From contig JAUNAJ010000015.1 in NCBI GenBank assembly GCA_030527645.1, forward strand, positions 1 through 64,000: 64,000 nucleotides of DNA, in the 5' to 3' direction. Under the pieces are notes generated by a model, which saw nothing but the letters and a program-made list of their open reading frames with translations, ran no database searches and was not told where the DNA came from. Shown here piece by piece: positions 11,709-51,822 of the stretch. The stretch is from Lachnospiraceae bacterium (GTDB lineage Bacteria > Bacillota > Clostridia > Lachnospirales > Lachnospiraceae). Every line of letters starts with the position of its first letter. Position 1 is the stretch's first letter. The position numbers and the translations under genes are program-made.

Positions 11709-11712
11709 TAAA

Positions 11713-11812
11713 ACAGTTATACGACTGACGGAAGTGGAATTGACCACAGGGAGTATAACAGTAGAAGCCGACCGTCTGGGCAGTTGTGTGTCCGGGGGCG
11801 GCTGTTTTTTTG
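11713..11812 (+). ncRNA. ZTP (pfl) riboswitch with terminator
   Basis: The leader contains the pfl-motif signatures ACTGACGGAAGTGG..CCAC..GGGAGTA and, downstream, GCCGACCGTCTGGGCAG. The latter is close to the highly conserved CCGCCTGGGC of ZTP aptamers. The expression platform is visible: CAGTTG, right after the conserved CTGGG, pairs with CGGCTG before a run of seven T. Aptamer folding would therefore compete with a terminator. ZTP and ZMP are derivatives of AICAR, the substrate of the enzyme encoded downstream, which fits the family's known gene associations. Confidence 0.85.
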
Positions 11813-30025: not shown

Positions 30026-30067
30026 CAGAAGGAGCCGGCTGGTTTGATCACCAGTCGGCTCCTTCTG
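30026..30067. terminator. Bidirectional terminator hairpin
   Basis: A 17-bp stem (30026-30042 with 30051-30067, one G-T pair) between the convergent response-regulator and Crp-type genes. It includes the last codons of the Crp-type gene. T-tracts are weak. Confidence 0.6.
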
Positions 30068-30737
30068 CGTCTTCAAGAGCATACAGCTCAAAATGCTTTC
30101 GATTTGTTTTCAGCAGTCCTTCCTTCTGGAGCTTGGAAAGCTCCGAGGACATGGCTGCCCGCTCCACTGACAGGTAATCAGCCAGCTGCTGCCGGTCATA
30201 GGGAATGTCGAAGGACAGAGAATTCTGCCGGATGGATTCTGATGACAGATAGGACAGCAGCTTATCCCTTGTGGACCGTTTGCTGATATGGGTGATCTTA
30301 TCATTAAAGGTCAGAAGCCTTCTGGAAAGTACATTGATCAGATTGCGGATCAGAGTCTGGTGCTGGCCGCAGACACTCTGGCAGGTAGTCAGTAGCTGCC
30401 GGACATGCAGCCAGAGCACGTCACAGTCTGAGTCTGCGTAGATGCTGATGTTCAGTACGGCATCGGGTGTTGCTGCGTAGGGCTCGCCGAAGAAATCTCC
30501 GGCAGTGCATTTGGAAAGAATATTGCGGTGCCCCCACAGATCCTCCTGGATGACCAGCACAGAGCCTGTCAGCACCAGACCCATGGATTCTGTAGTGTCT
30601 CCTGCCTGCAGAAGGAAGGAGCCTTTTTCCCGATGCTTCACTGTTCCTCCGATACACCCCAGAATAGAAAGAATCTCTTTATCCTCCAGCCCTGAAAAAA
30701 AGGGACTTTGTTTCATAACCGGTAAAAATTCCTGCAT
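30048..30737 (-). CDS. Crp/Fnr-family regulator, probable HcpR-type
   Basis: Transcription factor of 229 residues with an N-terminal cyclic-nucleotide-like sensor domain (PFFSGLEDKEILSILG ... GSVLVIQED, GDFFGEPYA). The C-terminal helix-turn-helix contains PYDRQQLADYLSVERAAMS. It has no Fnr-type four-cysteine cluster. It is divergent from hcp with a 17-bp palindrome between them, which suggests it controls hcp in response to nitric oxide or nitrosative stress; this is an inference from context. GTG at 30746 is an alternative start, better spaced to AAAGGA. Confidence 0.87.
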   Translation of the reverse strand: MQEFLPVMKQSPFFSGLEDKEILSILGCIGGTVKHREKGSFLLQAGDTTESMGLVLTGSVLVIQEDLWGHRNILSKCTAGDFFGEPYAATPDAVLNISIYADSDCDVLWLHVRQLLTTCQSVCGQHQTLIRNLINVLSRRLLTFNDKITHISKRSTRDKLLSYLSSESIRQNSLSFDIPYDRQQLADYLSVERAAMSSELSKLQKEGLLKTNRKHFELYALEDAEGADW

Positions 30738-30777
30738 AAAAATCACTCATTCCTTTCGTTTTTCCGGAAAAATAGTG

Positions 30778-30794
30778 ATGAAAATTATTTTCAT
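30778..30794. promoter_or_regulatory. Perfect 17-bp palindrome between the Crp-type gene and hcp
   Basis: ATGAAAAT-T-ATTTTCAT. It lies in the divergent promoter region, about 55 bp upstream of a TATACT -10 candidate for hcp (30844-30849). Likely operator of the adjacent regulator. Confidence 0.6.
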
Positions 30795-30897
30795 ACTAAT
30801 CGCTTTTGTTGGAAATCAAACATACAATCCACTGCCATTGTACTATACTCAACTCATCGAAACAACAGGAATTCATGCGGTCCGAGGCATGTGCAGA

Positions 30898-30971
30898 ATA
30901 TGGGTAACCGGAGCTGTGAAACGGCAGCGTCTGAGCAGGCAGGTGAGTTCATTCGCGAAAGGTAACCCATG
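30898..30971 (+). other. Stem-bounded leader segment before hcp
   Basis: ATGGGTAACC and GGTAACCCAT pair with one mismatch and enclose about 55 nt that contain a GCTG/CAGC hairpin. It lies between the hcp promoter and start codon. CATGAGC, CCGGGG and ACAGGAATAA just after it recur in the same order at 36123-36153, so part of it may be a repeat element. Confidence 0.4.
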
Positions 30972-31019
30972 AGCCGGGGACTGAACAGGAATAAGATTAT
31001 TTTAATGGAGGATCAAGGA

Positions 31020-32609
31020 ATGAGTGAGATGTTTTGTTTTCAGTGCGAGCAGACAGCAGGCTGCACAGCATGTACAGGAAAAGCAGGTGTCTGCGGCAAG
31101 AAGGCGGATACAGCAGGACTGCAGGATGAGCTGACAGGAGCACTGATCAGCCTGGCAAGAGCCACTGAGGGAAATGGTGTGGATAAACAGACAGCAAAGG
31201 TGCTGATCGAGGGTCTGTTTACAACGATTACAAACGTAAGCTTCGATGATGAGGCAATCAGGGCAATGACTGAGAAGGTCAGAGCAGAGAAGCAGAGACT
31301 GGTGCCGGAATGTGATACCTGCGGCTCCCCCTGCGGAAGAAATGATGAATACGACATGAAGCAGATGTGGAACGATCATGAGGACATCCGTTCTCTCAAA
31401 TCGCTGATCCTGTTCGGAATCCGCGGCATGGCTGCCTATGCCTATCACGCAGAGGTGCTGGGATATACCGATGATGAGGTAAACAGCTTCTTTGCAGAGG
31501 CGCTGTTCAAGATCGGCTATGAAGACAGTGCTGACGATCTTCTTCCGACAGTACTGAAGGTGGGAGAGATCAATCTGAAGTGCATGGCTCTTCTGGATCA
31601 GGCGAATACCGAGACCTACGGAACACCGGCACCTGTAATGGTACCTCTTACTGTAGAAAAGGGACCCTTCATCGTGGTAACCGGACATGACCTGAAGGAC
31701 CTTCAGCTGCTTCTGGAGCAGACAGAGGGCAAGGGAATCAATATCTATACCCATGGCGAGATGCTGCCGGCACACGCGTATCCGGAGCTGAAGAAGTTCT
31801 CTCACCTGAAGGGCAACTTCGGTACAGCATGGCAGAACCAGCAGAAGGAGTTTGACGGAATTCCAGCGCCCATCCTGTACACCACCAACTGTCTGATGGT
31901 TCCGAAGGCAAGCTACGCAGATCGGGTATTCACCACAGAGGTTGTGGCATTCCCGGGCGCTGTGCATATCGATGAGGAGAAGGATTTTACTCCCGTGATC
32001 GAGAAAGCTCTGGAGCTTGGCGGATATGCAGAGGATACTGCATTCACCGGTATCAACGGCGGAAACCAGGTAACCACCGGCTTCGGTCATGCAGCGATCC
32101 TGTCTCATGCAGGTACCGTAGTAGAAGCGGTGAAAGCAGGAGCAATCAAGCATTTCTTCCTGGTGGCCGGCTGTGACGGTGCAAAACCGGGCAGAAACTA
32201 CTACACTGAGTTTGTTAAACAGACGCCCTCCGACAGTATCGTTCTGACTCTGGCCTGCGGAAAATACCGCTTCAATGATCTGGACCTTGGTGAGATCGGC
32301 GGACTTCCGAGACTGATGGACATGGGACAGTGCAACGATGCCTATGGTGCCATCCAGGTTGCAGTGGCTCTGGCAGAAGCATTTAACTGCGGTGTCAATG
32401 AGCTTCCTCTGTCCTTCGTTCTTTCCTGGTATGAGCAGAAGGCAGTTTGTATCCTGCTGACACTCCTTCATCTGGGTATCAAGAACATCCGCCTTGGTCC
32501 GTCTCTGCCGGCATTTATCTCACCGGCGATTCTGAACTTCCTGGTGGAGAACTACGGAATCGCTCCGATCAGCACCCCGGAGGAGGATCTGAAGGCACTG
32601 CTGGGATGA
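31020..32609 (+). CDS. hcp: Hydroxylamine reductase / hybrid cluster protein
   Basis: Fe-S protein that reduces nitric oxide or hydroxylamine, protecting anaerobes against nitrosative stress; cytoplasmic. The 529-residue protein has the N-terminal cysteine cluster FCFQCEQTAGCTACTGKAGVCG for the cubane. Hybrid-cluster ligands are visible later in TTNCLMVP, VAGCDGAKPGRNYY and TLACGKYRFN. The ATG at 31020 has GGAGGATCAAGGA; upstream in-frame codons lie in the leader. It is divergent from a probable HcpR-type regulator. Confidence 0.95.
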   Translation: MSEMFCFQCEQTAGCTACTGKAGVCGKKADTAGLQDELTGALISLARATEGNGVDKQTAKVLIEGLFTTITNVSFDDEAIRAMTEKVRAEKQRLVPECDTCGSPCGRNDEYDMKQMWNDHEDIRSLKSLILFGIRGMAAYAYHAEVLGYTDDEVNSFFAEALFKIGYEDSADDLLPTVLKVGEINLKCMALLDQANTETYGTPAPVMVPLTVEKGPFIVVTGHDLKDLQLLLEQTEGKGINIYTHGEMLPAHAYPELKKFSHLKGNFGTAWQNQQKEFDGIPAPILYTTNCLMVPKASYADRVFTTEVVAFPGAVHIDEEKDFTPVIEKALELGGYAEDTAFTGINGGNQVTTGFGHAAILSHAGTVVEAVKAGAIKHFFLVAGCDGAKPGRNYYTEFVKQTPSDSIVLTLACGKYRFNDLDLGEIGGLPRLMDMGQCNDAYGAIQVAVALAEAFNCGVNELPLSFVLSWYEQKAVCILLTLLHLGIKNIRLGPSLPAFISPAILNFLVENYGIAPISTPEEDLKALLG

Positions 32610-32804: not shown

Positions 32805-32865
32805 TGCTTTCCTCCGGGGAGTGGGGCTCGCAGCAGCCCGCGCAGCCATGCGAAAAGGAGGAAAT

Positions 32866-34944
32866 ATGGCAGGACAACAGTCAAACAAAATGGGACGGGA
32901 CAGCATGAAGCGGCTGATCTGGGGAATGGGTCTCCCCATGATCATTTCCATGGTGCTGCAGGCCCTGTATAACGTAGTGGATTCCATATTTGTGGCAAAT
33001 ATGGGAGCAGAGGGTGCAGTGGCCAATCAGGCACTGACCATTGCATTTCCGGTGCAGATTATGATCATTGCGCTGGGTGTGGGAACAGGAGTGGGAATCA
33101 ATGCCCTGCTTTCCAAAAGCCTCGGAGAGAATAATTCCGTTCTGGCTAATAAGGTGGCAGGAAACGGTATTTTCCTGAGTATTGTGATCTACGCTGTATT
33201 CCTGGTATTCGGTGTGTTTTTTGCAAAGGGCTTTATCTCTCTCTTTGCCAACGGTGATGCGGCTGTTATTTCCATGGGAACCAGCTATCTGCGGATCGTT
33301 ACGATCTTTTCCTTCGGAGGCATTGCCTTTACGGTATTTGAACGACTGCTGCAGGCTACCGGAAAAACAGTGTATTCCATGGCAGCACAGATCAGCGGTG
33401 CCGTCACCAATATCATTCTGGACTATATCTTTATCTATCCGCTGGGAATGGGTGTTGCCGGTGCGGCAGCTGCAACGGTCATCGGTCAGTTTGTCTCTCT
33501 CTTCGTGGCAGCCTGGTTCCACTACGGTCATAATCGCGAGATCGACGGCAGTCTGAAGTTTATCAGACCGGAGGGCGGAATCATCAGGGGCATCTACAGC
33601 ATCGGTGCATCCGCTGCAGTCATGCAGGCCCTTCTGTCTGTCATGATGGCGGGCATGAATGCCATTCTTAATACGGCAGACGCTGATCCGACGATCCTGG
33701 TAGGCTCCTTCGGAATCTATTACAAGATCCAGCAGATCGCTCTGTTTGCAGCCTTTGGTCTCTCGAATACAATGATCTCTGTTCTTGCCTTTAATTACGG
33801 CATGAGAAACAAGCAGAGAAGCAGGGACTGTATCCGGTACGGAATTCAGGATACCCTTCTGGTGATGCTGATCATTACAGTGATATTCCAGATTTTTGCT
33901 TCCGCTCTGGCTTCTCTGTTCGGACTGGCAGGAGATTCCACGAAGGAGATCATCGATGTGTGCAAGACAGCGATCCGGATCGCCAGCCTTGGTTATCTGT
34001 TCATGGGCTTCAGTGTAGCCGTTCAGGGGGCACTGCAGGCACTGCGCTATGCGGGAAGGCCGCTGCTGATCTCTCTTCTGCGACTGGTGATCTTCGTGTT
34101 CCCCATTGCGTATTACTTTACCGGATTTGAAAATGTAACTGAGGTTGTGTGGTGGACCTTCCCCATTACTGAGATTCTGACGGCAGTGATCTCTGCATTC
34201 ATTCTGCGGGCAACCTACAAATCTAAAATTGAGACCATGGAGGACGCAGCAGTTCCGGCAGGGGCAGACTCAATCGAGTCGGGAGCCGGACAGCGGAGAT
34301 CCGAAGGCAGCGGTTCCGATGGTCTGCATGGAAAGTCTGCAGGCGCAGGCGCTGCTGCTTCTGAAGCGGACGGGCAGCAGAGGGCAGAAACGGGTATTGT
34401 TCTTGCGATTTCAAGACAGCACGGAACCAACGGAAAGAGGATTGCCCGTATGGCAGCGGAAAGCCTTGGACTGGCCTTCTATGACAAGGAAGAGGTGAAA
34501 AATTATGCTGCCGGGCATGGTCTGGTGCAGGAGACGGATGATAAGGAGCTGTACCGGTTCTTCCTTTCTCTTGATGTGGAAAAGAATTCTATTATCAAGC
34601 AGGCGGAAGCGATCAGAAGTATTGAGAAGGAAGGCAGCTGTGTGATCGTCGGCCGGGGAGCTGACCACGTACTGGACAGCAGCCGTGTGGTCCGGATCTT
34701 CCTGTATGCACCTGAGGAATACAGAATCGGAAATATCATGAAAAACTACGAAGATTCCTATAAGGATGCGAAAAAGCATATCCAGGATTCCGATGTCAGC
34801 AGGGCAAGATATTATGATGTGATTGCCGGAAAGACCTGGGGGGATAAGGATAATTATGATCTGTGCATCAACTGTGAGATCGGGGATGAGAAGGTGAAGG
34901 AACTGATCTGCAGCTATGTGAAAAGTATCAGTGTAACAGAATAA
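32866..34944 (+). CDS. MATE efflux transporter fused to a cytidylate kinase-like domain
   Basis: A 692-residue two-part protein. Residues 1 to about 458 form a MATE-family Na+/H+-drug antiporter with twelve hydrophobic segments (LIWGMGLPMIISMVLQALYN at the start, family repeats AQISGAVTNIILDYIFIYPL). A flexible Ala/Gly/Ser/Glu linker of about 50 residues follows. The last 185 residues are a cytidylate kinase-like P-loop domain: IVLAISRQHGTNGKRIARMA, FYDKEEV, VIVGRGADHVL and RIFLYAPEEYRI. Its phosphate loop is HGTNGKRI. The frame is open throughout, so the fusion is real in this sequence. AAAAGGAGG precedes the ATG. A probable guanidine-sensing leader controls it. Confidence 0.9.
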   Translation: MAGQQSNKMGRDSMKRLIWGMGLPMIISMVLQALYNVVDSIFVANMGAEGAVANQALTIAFPVQIMIIALGVGTGVGINALLSKSLGENNSVLANKVAGNGIFLSIVIYAVFLVFGVFFAKGFISLFANGDAAVISMGTSYLRIVTIFSFGGIAFTVFERLLQATGKTVYSMAAQISGAVTNIILDYIFIYPLGMGVAGAAAATVIGQFVSLFVAAWFHYGHNREIDGSLKFIRPEGGIIRGIYSIGASAAVMQALLSVMMAGMNAILNTADADPTILVGSFGIYYKIQQIALFAAFGLSNTMISVLAFNYGMRNKQRSRDCIRYGIQDTLLVMLIITVIFQIFASALASLFGLAGDSTKEIIDVCKTAIRIASLGYLFMGFSVAVQGALQALRYAGRPLLISLLRLVIFVFPIAYYFTGFENVTEVVWWTFPITEILTAVISAFILRATYKSKIETMEDAAVPAGADSIESGAGQRRSEGSGSDGLHGKSAGAGAAASEADGQQRAETGIVLAISRQHGTNGKRIARMAAESLGLAFYDKEEVKNYAAGHGLVQETDDKELYRFFLSLDVEKNSIIKQAEAIRSIEKEGSCVIVGRGADHVLDSSRVVRIFLYAPEEYRIGNIMKNYEDSYKDAKKHIQDSDVSRARYYDVIAGKTWGDKDNYDLCINCEIGDEKVKELICSYVKSISVTE

Positions 34945-51640: not shown

Positions 51641-51659
51641 TTGCCTTGTAAGTGAATAA

Positions 51660-51822
51660 GATCTTCAGGGCAGGGTGCAATTCCCTACCGGCGGTAAAGC
51701 CCGCGAGCCGAAAGGCATGATTTGGTGTAATTCCAAAGCCGACAGTACAGTCTGGATGAAAGAAGAGAAGTTGATTCAAGTTTATTTTGCTCTGGAAAAA
51801 GTGTTTTTCCGGAGCTTTTTTA
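51660..51822 (+). ncRNA. FMN riboswitch (RFN element) with terminator
   Basis: Contains the conserved RFN blocks ATCTTCAGGGCAGGGTG, ATTCCCTACCGGCGGT, AAGCCCGCGAGC, GATTTGGTGTAATTCC and AAAGCCGACAGT, in order. The expression platform is a hairpin GCTC.GGAAAAA / TTTTTCCGGAGC with a T-run at 51789-51822. FMN binding is expected to favour termination and switch off ribDEBAH. Confidence 0.97.

Follow-up and report, generated by a model that had tools for sequence, protein, structure and literature searches.

The 64,000 nucleotides of Lachnospiraceae bacterium DNA analysed here (contig JAUNAJ010000015.1, positions 1 to 64,000, hereafter the window) contain a gene in which a MATE exporter continues into a soluble domain resembling cytidylate kinase. 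To our knowledge, MATE pumps are usually described as carriers of two lobes that lack a regulatory domain of their own. The locus therefore raises the question of whether such a fusion is real and, if so, what a kinase-like domain does on an efflux pump.

One reading frame encodes the exporter and the kinase-like domain

The frame is free of stop codons from 32821 to 34944, and the ATG at 32866 is the better start given the AGGAGG that precedes it (Table 1). ORF analysis, Pfam and NCBIfam all confirm the proposal of an earlier note, made from the sequence of this DNA, that a single unbroken frame joins a complete MATE protein to a kinase-like domain. The MatE family (PF01554) matches the protein in two stretches (E = 7.6e-34) and the NCBIfam model TIGR00797 (matE) scores 171.3 bits against a cut-off of 147.4; none of the named MATE equivalogs of NCBIfam reached its cut-off with the window protein. 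The N-lobe proton network of PfMATE consists of Y37, D41, Y139, N180, D184 and T202 (PMC12358922). Counterparts of all six are found in the window protein (Y35, D39, Y141, N182, D186, and T204, respectively), the equivalence being judged from spacing and conservation, without direct alignment to PfMATE, and each of them is 98–100% conserved among 49 relatives. Because all six residues match, the MATE half is predicted to be transport-competent. The protein is thus, like the DinF/PfMATE-type exporters (TIGR00797, PF01554), full-length and two-lobed with the N-lobe network in place, and differs from them by its cytoplasmic C-terminal PF13189 domain.

The low-complexity linker described in the earlier note is indeed present between the halves: it is rich in Ala, Gly and Ser, and its GC content exceeds the 50% and 47% of the flanking halves. 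The direct orthologue of the gene, L214, has a linker as well, although this one is only about 20 residues long and not of low complexity. On this comparison, the long low-complexity stretch is a local feature peculiar to the window copy.

Table 1. Positions of the fused gene and its parts in the window
Feature	Coordinates	Strand	Details and basis
Fused gene, MATE exporter::PF13189	32866..34944	+	692 aa; ORF and Pfam
Ribosome-binding site, AGGAGG	32856..32861	+	4 nt 5′ of the ATG; read directly
MATE half, residues 1–455	32866..34230	+	Pfam, NCBIfam, conservation
Ala/Gly/Ser-rich linker, residues 462–511 (50 residues)	34249..34398	+	GC 63%
PF13189 Cytidylate_kin2 domain	34399..34941	+	Pfam match residues 512–670; fold to about 690
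Atypical phosphate loop, R517-QHGTNGK-R525	34414..34440	+	Alignment of 96 family members and the genome's own Cmk
Conserved G596-R597 pair (GR of CMP kinases)	34651..34656	+	Alignment conservation
Conserved D643-x-x-R646, lid region	34792..34803	+	Alignment conservation

An Rfam search gave no match near the fusion gene, and control by a riboswitch was rejected accordingly; a scan for promoters and terminators returned nothing informative. Elsewhere in the window, Rfam identifies a ZMP/ZTP riboswitch (11711–11788) and an FMN riboswitch (51657–51771). Just upstream of the fusion, a gene for a Crp/Fnr-type regulator is divergent from that of a hybrid-cluster (prismane) protein (30048–32609), and a terminator-like hairpin can be seen by eye between the prismane protein gene and the fusion gene.

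The fusion recurs, and the two parts also occur as neighbouring genes

The same domain pair was sought across genomes, as the earlier note had suggested. Across 397 genomes of this family, the C-terminal domain has nearly all of its closest relatives in frames of 670–700 aa, with separate kinases lower in the ranking. Besides the window's, 14 intact MATE::PF13189 fusions were identified (L214, L059, L061, L123, L126, L127, L215–L218, L220–L222, and L030), giving 15 in total; the window's type comprises the window and 13 of these (n = 14), L030 being excluded as a separate fusion event. L214 belongs to another genus, and its MATE is 69% identical to the window's over 445 residues and its kinase domain 52% over 171. 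That two genes had been joined artificially, by the assembly or a frameshift, might have been suspected from the GC-rich, low-complexity linker and from the separate neighbouring genes of relatives, but the orthologous fusion in L214 and the 13 further intact ones come from independent assemblies, and this explanation was rejected as having a negligible chance of being correct. Homologues are therefore not always encoded separately, which the earlier note had named, together with an assembly error at the joint, as grounds for abandoning its claim. The fusion is real.

Among MATEs that are 45–50% identical to the window's, a PF13189 gene often directly adjoins the transporter gene, frequently overlapping it or lying within tens of bases. 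The MATE clade of L059 offers a whole series, from fused genes, through adjacent separate frames (L130–L135), to MATE alone. Adjoining MATE and PF13189 genes are annotated by NCBI in Lachnospira eligens and, as the pair BIV16_RS14915/RS14910, in Roseburia sp. 831b, and in the Bacteroidota the gene pair occurs in Phocaeicola massiliensis and a Bacteroidales genome. Over a set of 21 genomes, a MATE is fused to, or lies beside, 6 of the 49 strong PF13189 matches. Both halves belong to known families, and database names already exist for the neighbours; among the open-access papers searched we found none on the MATE/PF13189 pairing, and the architecture may well be recorded in subscription papers or domain-architecture databases.

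History of the fusion

The MATE halves of the fusions fall into two distant clades (A and B), split at 100/100. The kinase halves of the 14 window-type fusions, those of the window and L214 included, form one clade (100/99). Since one kinase clade sits on two MATE clades, the fused kinase type was probably transferred between MATEs. A tree constrained to place the window MATE in clade B was rejected (p about 1e-91), and one that grouped the window kinase with the kinases accompanying clade-A MATEs was rejected only mildly (AU test, p = 0.03). A simple joining of the kinase gene that adjoins clade-A MATEs is disfavoured, the window kinase grouping with the fused kinases of clade B (100/99). L030 stands apart in both the MATE and the kinase trees. 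L059 and L061 both have a clade-A MATE gene just upstream of a clade-B MATE::kinase gene; loss of the intervening MATE from such an arrangement would yield a clade-A MATE::kinase fusion, which is a possible, unproven route. In L125 and L182, a clade-B MATE carries a remnant of only 39 residues of the kinase domain, an apparent domain loss after fusion.

The soluble domain has a CMP-kinase fold and an atypical phosphate loop

The C-terminal domain matches PF13189 with 113.7 bits (gathering cut-off 28). Its structure was predicted with AF2 from nine sequences (pLDDT 81), and the model fits best the solved family members 3hdt (Z 23.2) and 3fdi (Z 22.4), followed by CMP kinases at Z 16.7 and lower (to 14), in keeping with an NMP-kinase-like P-loop fold. 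Both 3hdt and 3fdi are uncharacterised and, at 27–30% identity to the window domain, share its family and fold; they are stand-alone proteins, and a further difference is the loop G-[ST]-x-G-K of the window's fused subfamily. The family-conserved residues R517, G520, G523, G596, R597, D643, R646, W658, and Y664 are all present in the window domain.

Canonical (d)CMP kinases (Cmk; 2h92, 1kdo) have in common with the window domain the fold (Z 15–17) and the GR motif, but the Walker A lysine is missing from the latter. Indeed, the corresponding column is Gly in 96/96 aligned PF13189 members and Lys in the genome's own canonical Cmk, which is encoded separately (L015). In the window domain G523 occupies this position, with K524 one residue further; the position after the lost lysine is basic (R/K/H) in 73 of the 96 members and K in all 14 fusions of the window's subfamily. 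The domain deviates from the GxxGxGK[ST] pattern of true Cmk and scores 29 bits with TIGR02173 (Cmk), for which the cut-off is 102.1. Given the invariant Gly, canonical kinase chemistry is unlikely. Thus, of the P-loop domain with cytidylate kinase-like motifs that the earlier note had described, the fold is upheld and the canonical lysine is not. In close fusion pairs, omega is about 0.04–0.16 in the fused PF13189 domain, similar to or somewhat above that of the transporter half, so that the domain is maintained by purifying selection.

Other forms of the domain were also encountered. The window's own genome has two tandem PF13189 genes (L012, 1441–2768, minus strand), the second of which (174 aa) has a degenerate loop, KEKGINVDK. 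A distinct group from other members of the same phylum (L104–L115) consists of longer proteins (316–409 aa) whose additional C-terminal region has no match in Pfam (sequence seen in L104), and in several of them a phosphoribosyltransferase gene comes next (5 neighbours in the Pfam tally).

PF13189 is also combined with other transporters

Three unrelated transporters or transporter-like membrane proteins, namely EamA/DMT, an NCS1 permease and DUF6198, are likewise fused to PF13189. C-terminal fusion to EamA/DMT is found in L118 and, at full length, in seven other genomes (58–93% identity). The NCS1 fusion of L031 (2265–4407, minus strand) has its frame broken inside the kinase part in that genome, while in G171 the frame is open and encodes 715 aa (83% identity). 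Finally, a DUF6198 membrane protein carries the domain at its C-terminus in Maribacter (L006). The transporter neighbours of separate PF13189 genes include CitMHS, CitMHS_2, AA_permease, Na_H_antiporter, SNF, and MFS_2. Overall, of 103 PF13189 genes, 29 have a multi-TM protein, as called by a simple hydropathy count, either fused to them or next to them on the same strand; among 96 background genes the figure was 9 (Fisher p = 0.001). Since this background came from the same loci and is small, it gives only a rough measure of the enrichment. About 70% of the PF13189 genes have no membrane neighbour, and transport regulation is therefore not the only context of the family; many adjoin housekeeping genes, for instance those of pseudouridine synthase, phosphoribosyltransferase, and polyphosphate kinase. 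Two PF13189 genes directly following CitMHS_2 citrate carriers (L171, 2273–3313; L095, 1429–2496) encode proteins extended at the N-terminus by about 140 residues, for which Pfam gives no match.

What the domain may do on the pump

On balance, and with confidence only a little above even, we take the PF13189 tail to be a cytoplasmic ligand-binding regulatory module of a cation-coupled MATE exporter. The conserved Arg/Gly/Asp pocket would bind a phosphorylated metabolite or nucleotide, and the ensuing movement of the lid would reach the last transmembrane helices by way of the linker, so as to switch or tune export by metabolic state, as RCK, PII, CBS and STAS domains do elsewhere. Where the genes are separate and adjacent, the prediction is that the soluble protein associates with the pump as one of its subunits. 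This reading draws on the 15 intact fusions and the adjacent pairs, the reuse of the domain on EamA, NCS1 and DUF6198 proteins and the multi-TM enrichment, and further on the Gly found throughout the family, the low omega, the transfer between clades and the genome's own Cmk. Two observations count against it, namely that the basic residue after the lost lysine might serve catalysis and that most PF13189 genes are away from membrane proteins. Since the domain is common to pumps with unrelated substrates, a sensor is to be preferred over a substrate-specific enzyme, and the same cytoplasmic domain on such different carriers points to an input that they have in common, not to a common substrate. 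Control of export, one of the options raised in the earlier note, is thus the best supported of them; for the modification of a substrate, no specific support was found.

The main rival is an active small-molecule kinase, phosphorylating or otherwise modifying the compound exported by the MATE, with modification coupled to export. The CMP-kinase fold with its GR and DxxR acceptor and lid residues would suit such an enzyme, and the basic residue that is always Lys in the fused subfamily is a possible surrogate for the lost one; the replacement of the Walker A lysine in every member speaks against it, as does the occurrence of this domain on both importers and exporters, whose compounds are unrelated and would be beyond a single kinase of narrow specificity. 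We regard this explanation as unlikely, although it deserves more weight than the two that follow. A kinase of ordinary metabolism that is simply tethered to transporters, or co-expressed with them, and has no direct effect on transport would fit the many PF13189 genes beside housekeeping genes, but hardly the recurrent covalent attachment to four unrelated kinds of transporter, the low omega of the fused domain, or the transfer of the fused kinase type to another clade of MATEs; it appears less likely still. Finally, the domain might only stabilise, dimerise or localise the pump. The coexistence of fused and separate forms makes a scaffold conceivable, yet the most conserved residues are those of the putative ligand pocket and not just of the fold, and we consider a purely structural role very improbable.

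Regulatory cytoplasmic domains are established on other transport proteins: RCK on K+ channels, CBS on CLC, STAS on SulP, and PII on AmtB. Like PF13189, these are soluble domains reused on transport proteins, either fused or as partners; they are unrelated to PF13189, for which a regulatory role is a proposal. As a wider and more tentative proposal, which we hold possible rather than probable, PF13189 could be a general regulatory module of secondary transporters, that is, a degenerate NMP-kinase domain acting as a phospho-metabolite sensor that gates MATE, DMT, NCS1, DUF6198, citrate, amino-acid and MFS carriers, fused to them or as their partner.

If the regulatory reading is correct, a recurrent kinase-like domain would give MATE exporters a direct metabolic input, and PF13189 would receive a first role; the family is widespread, and its solved members are uncharacterised. 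The existence of fused, paired and solo forms makes this reading directly testable, also for several other transporter families.
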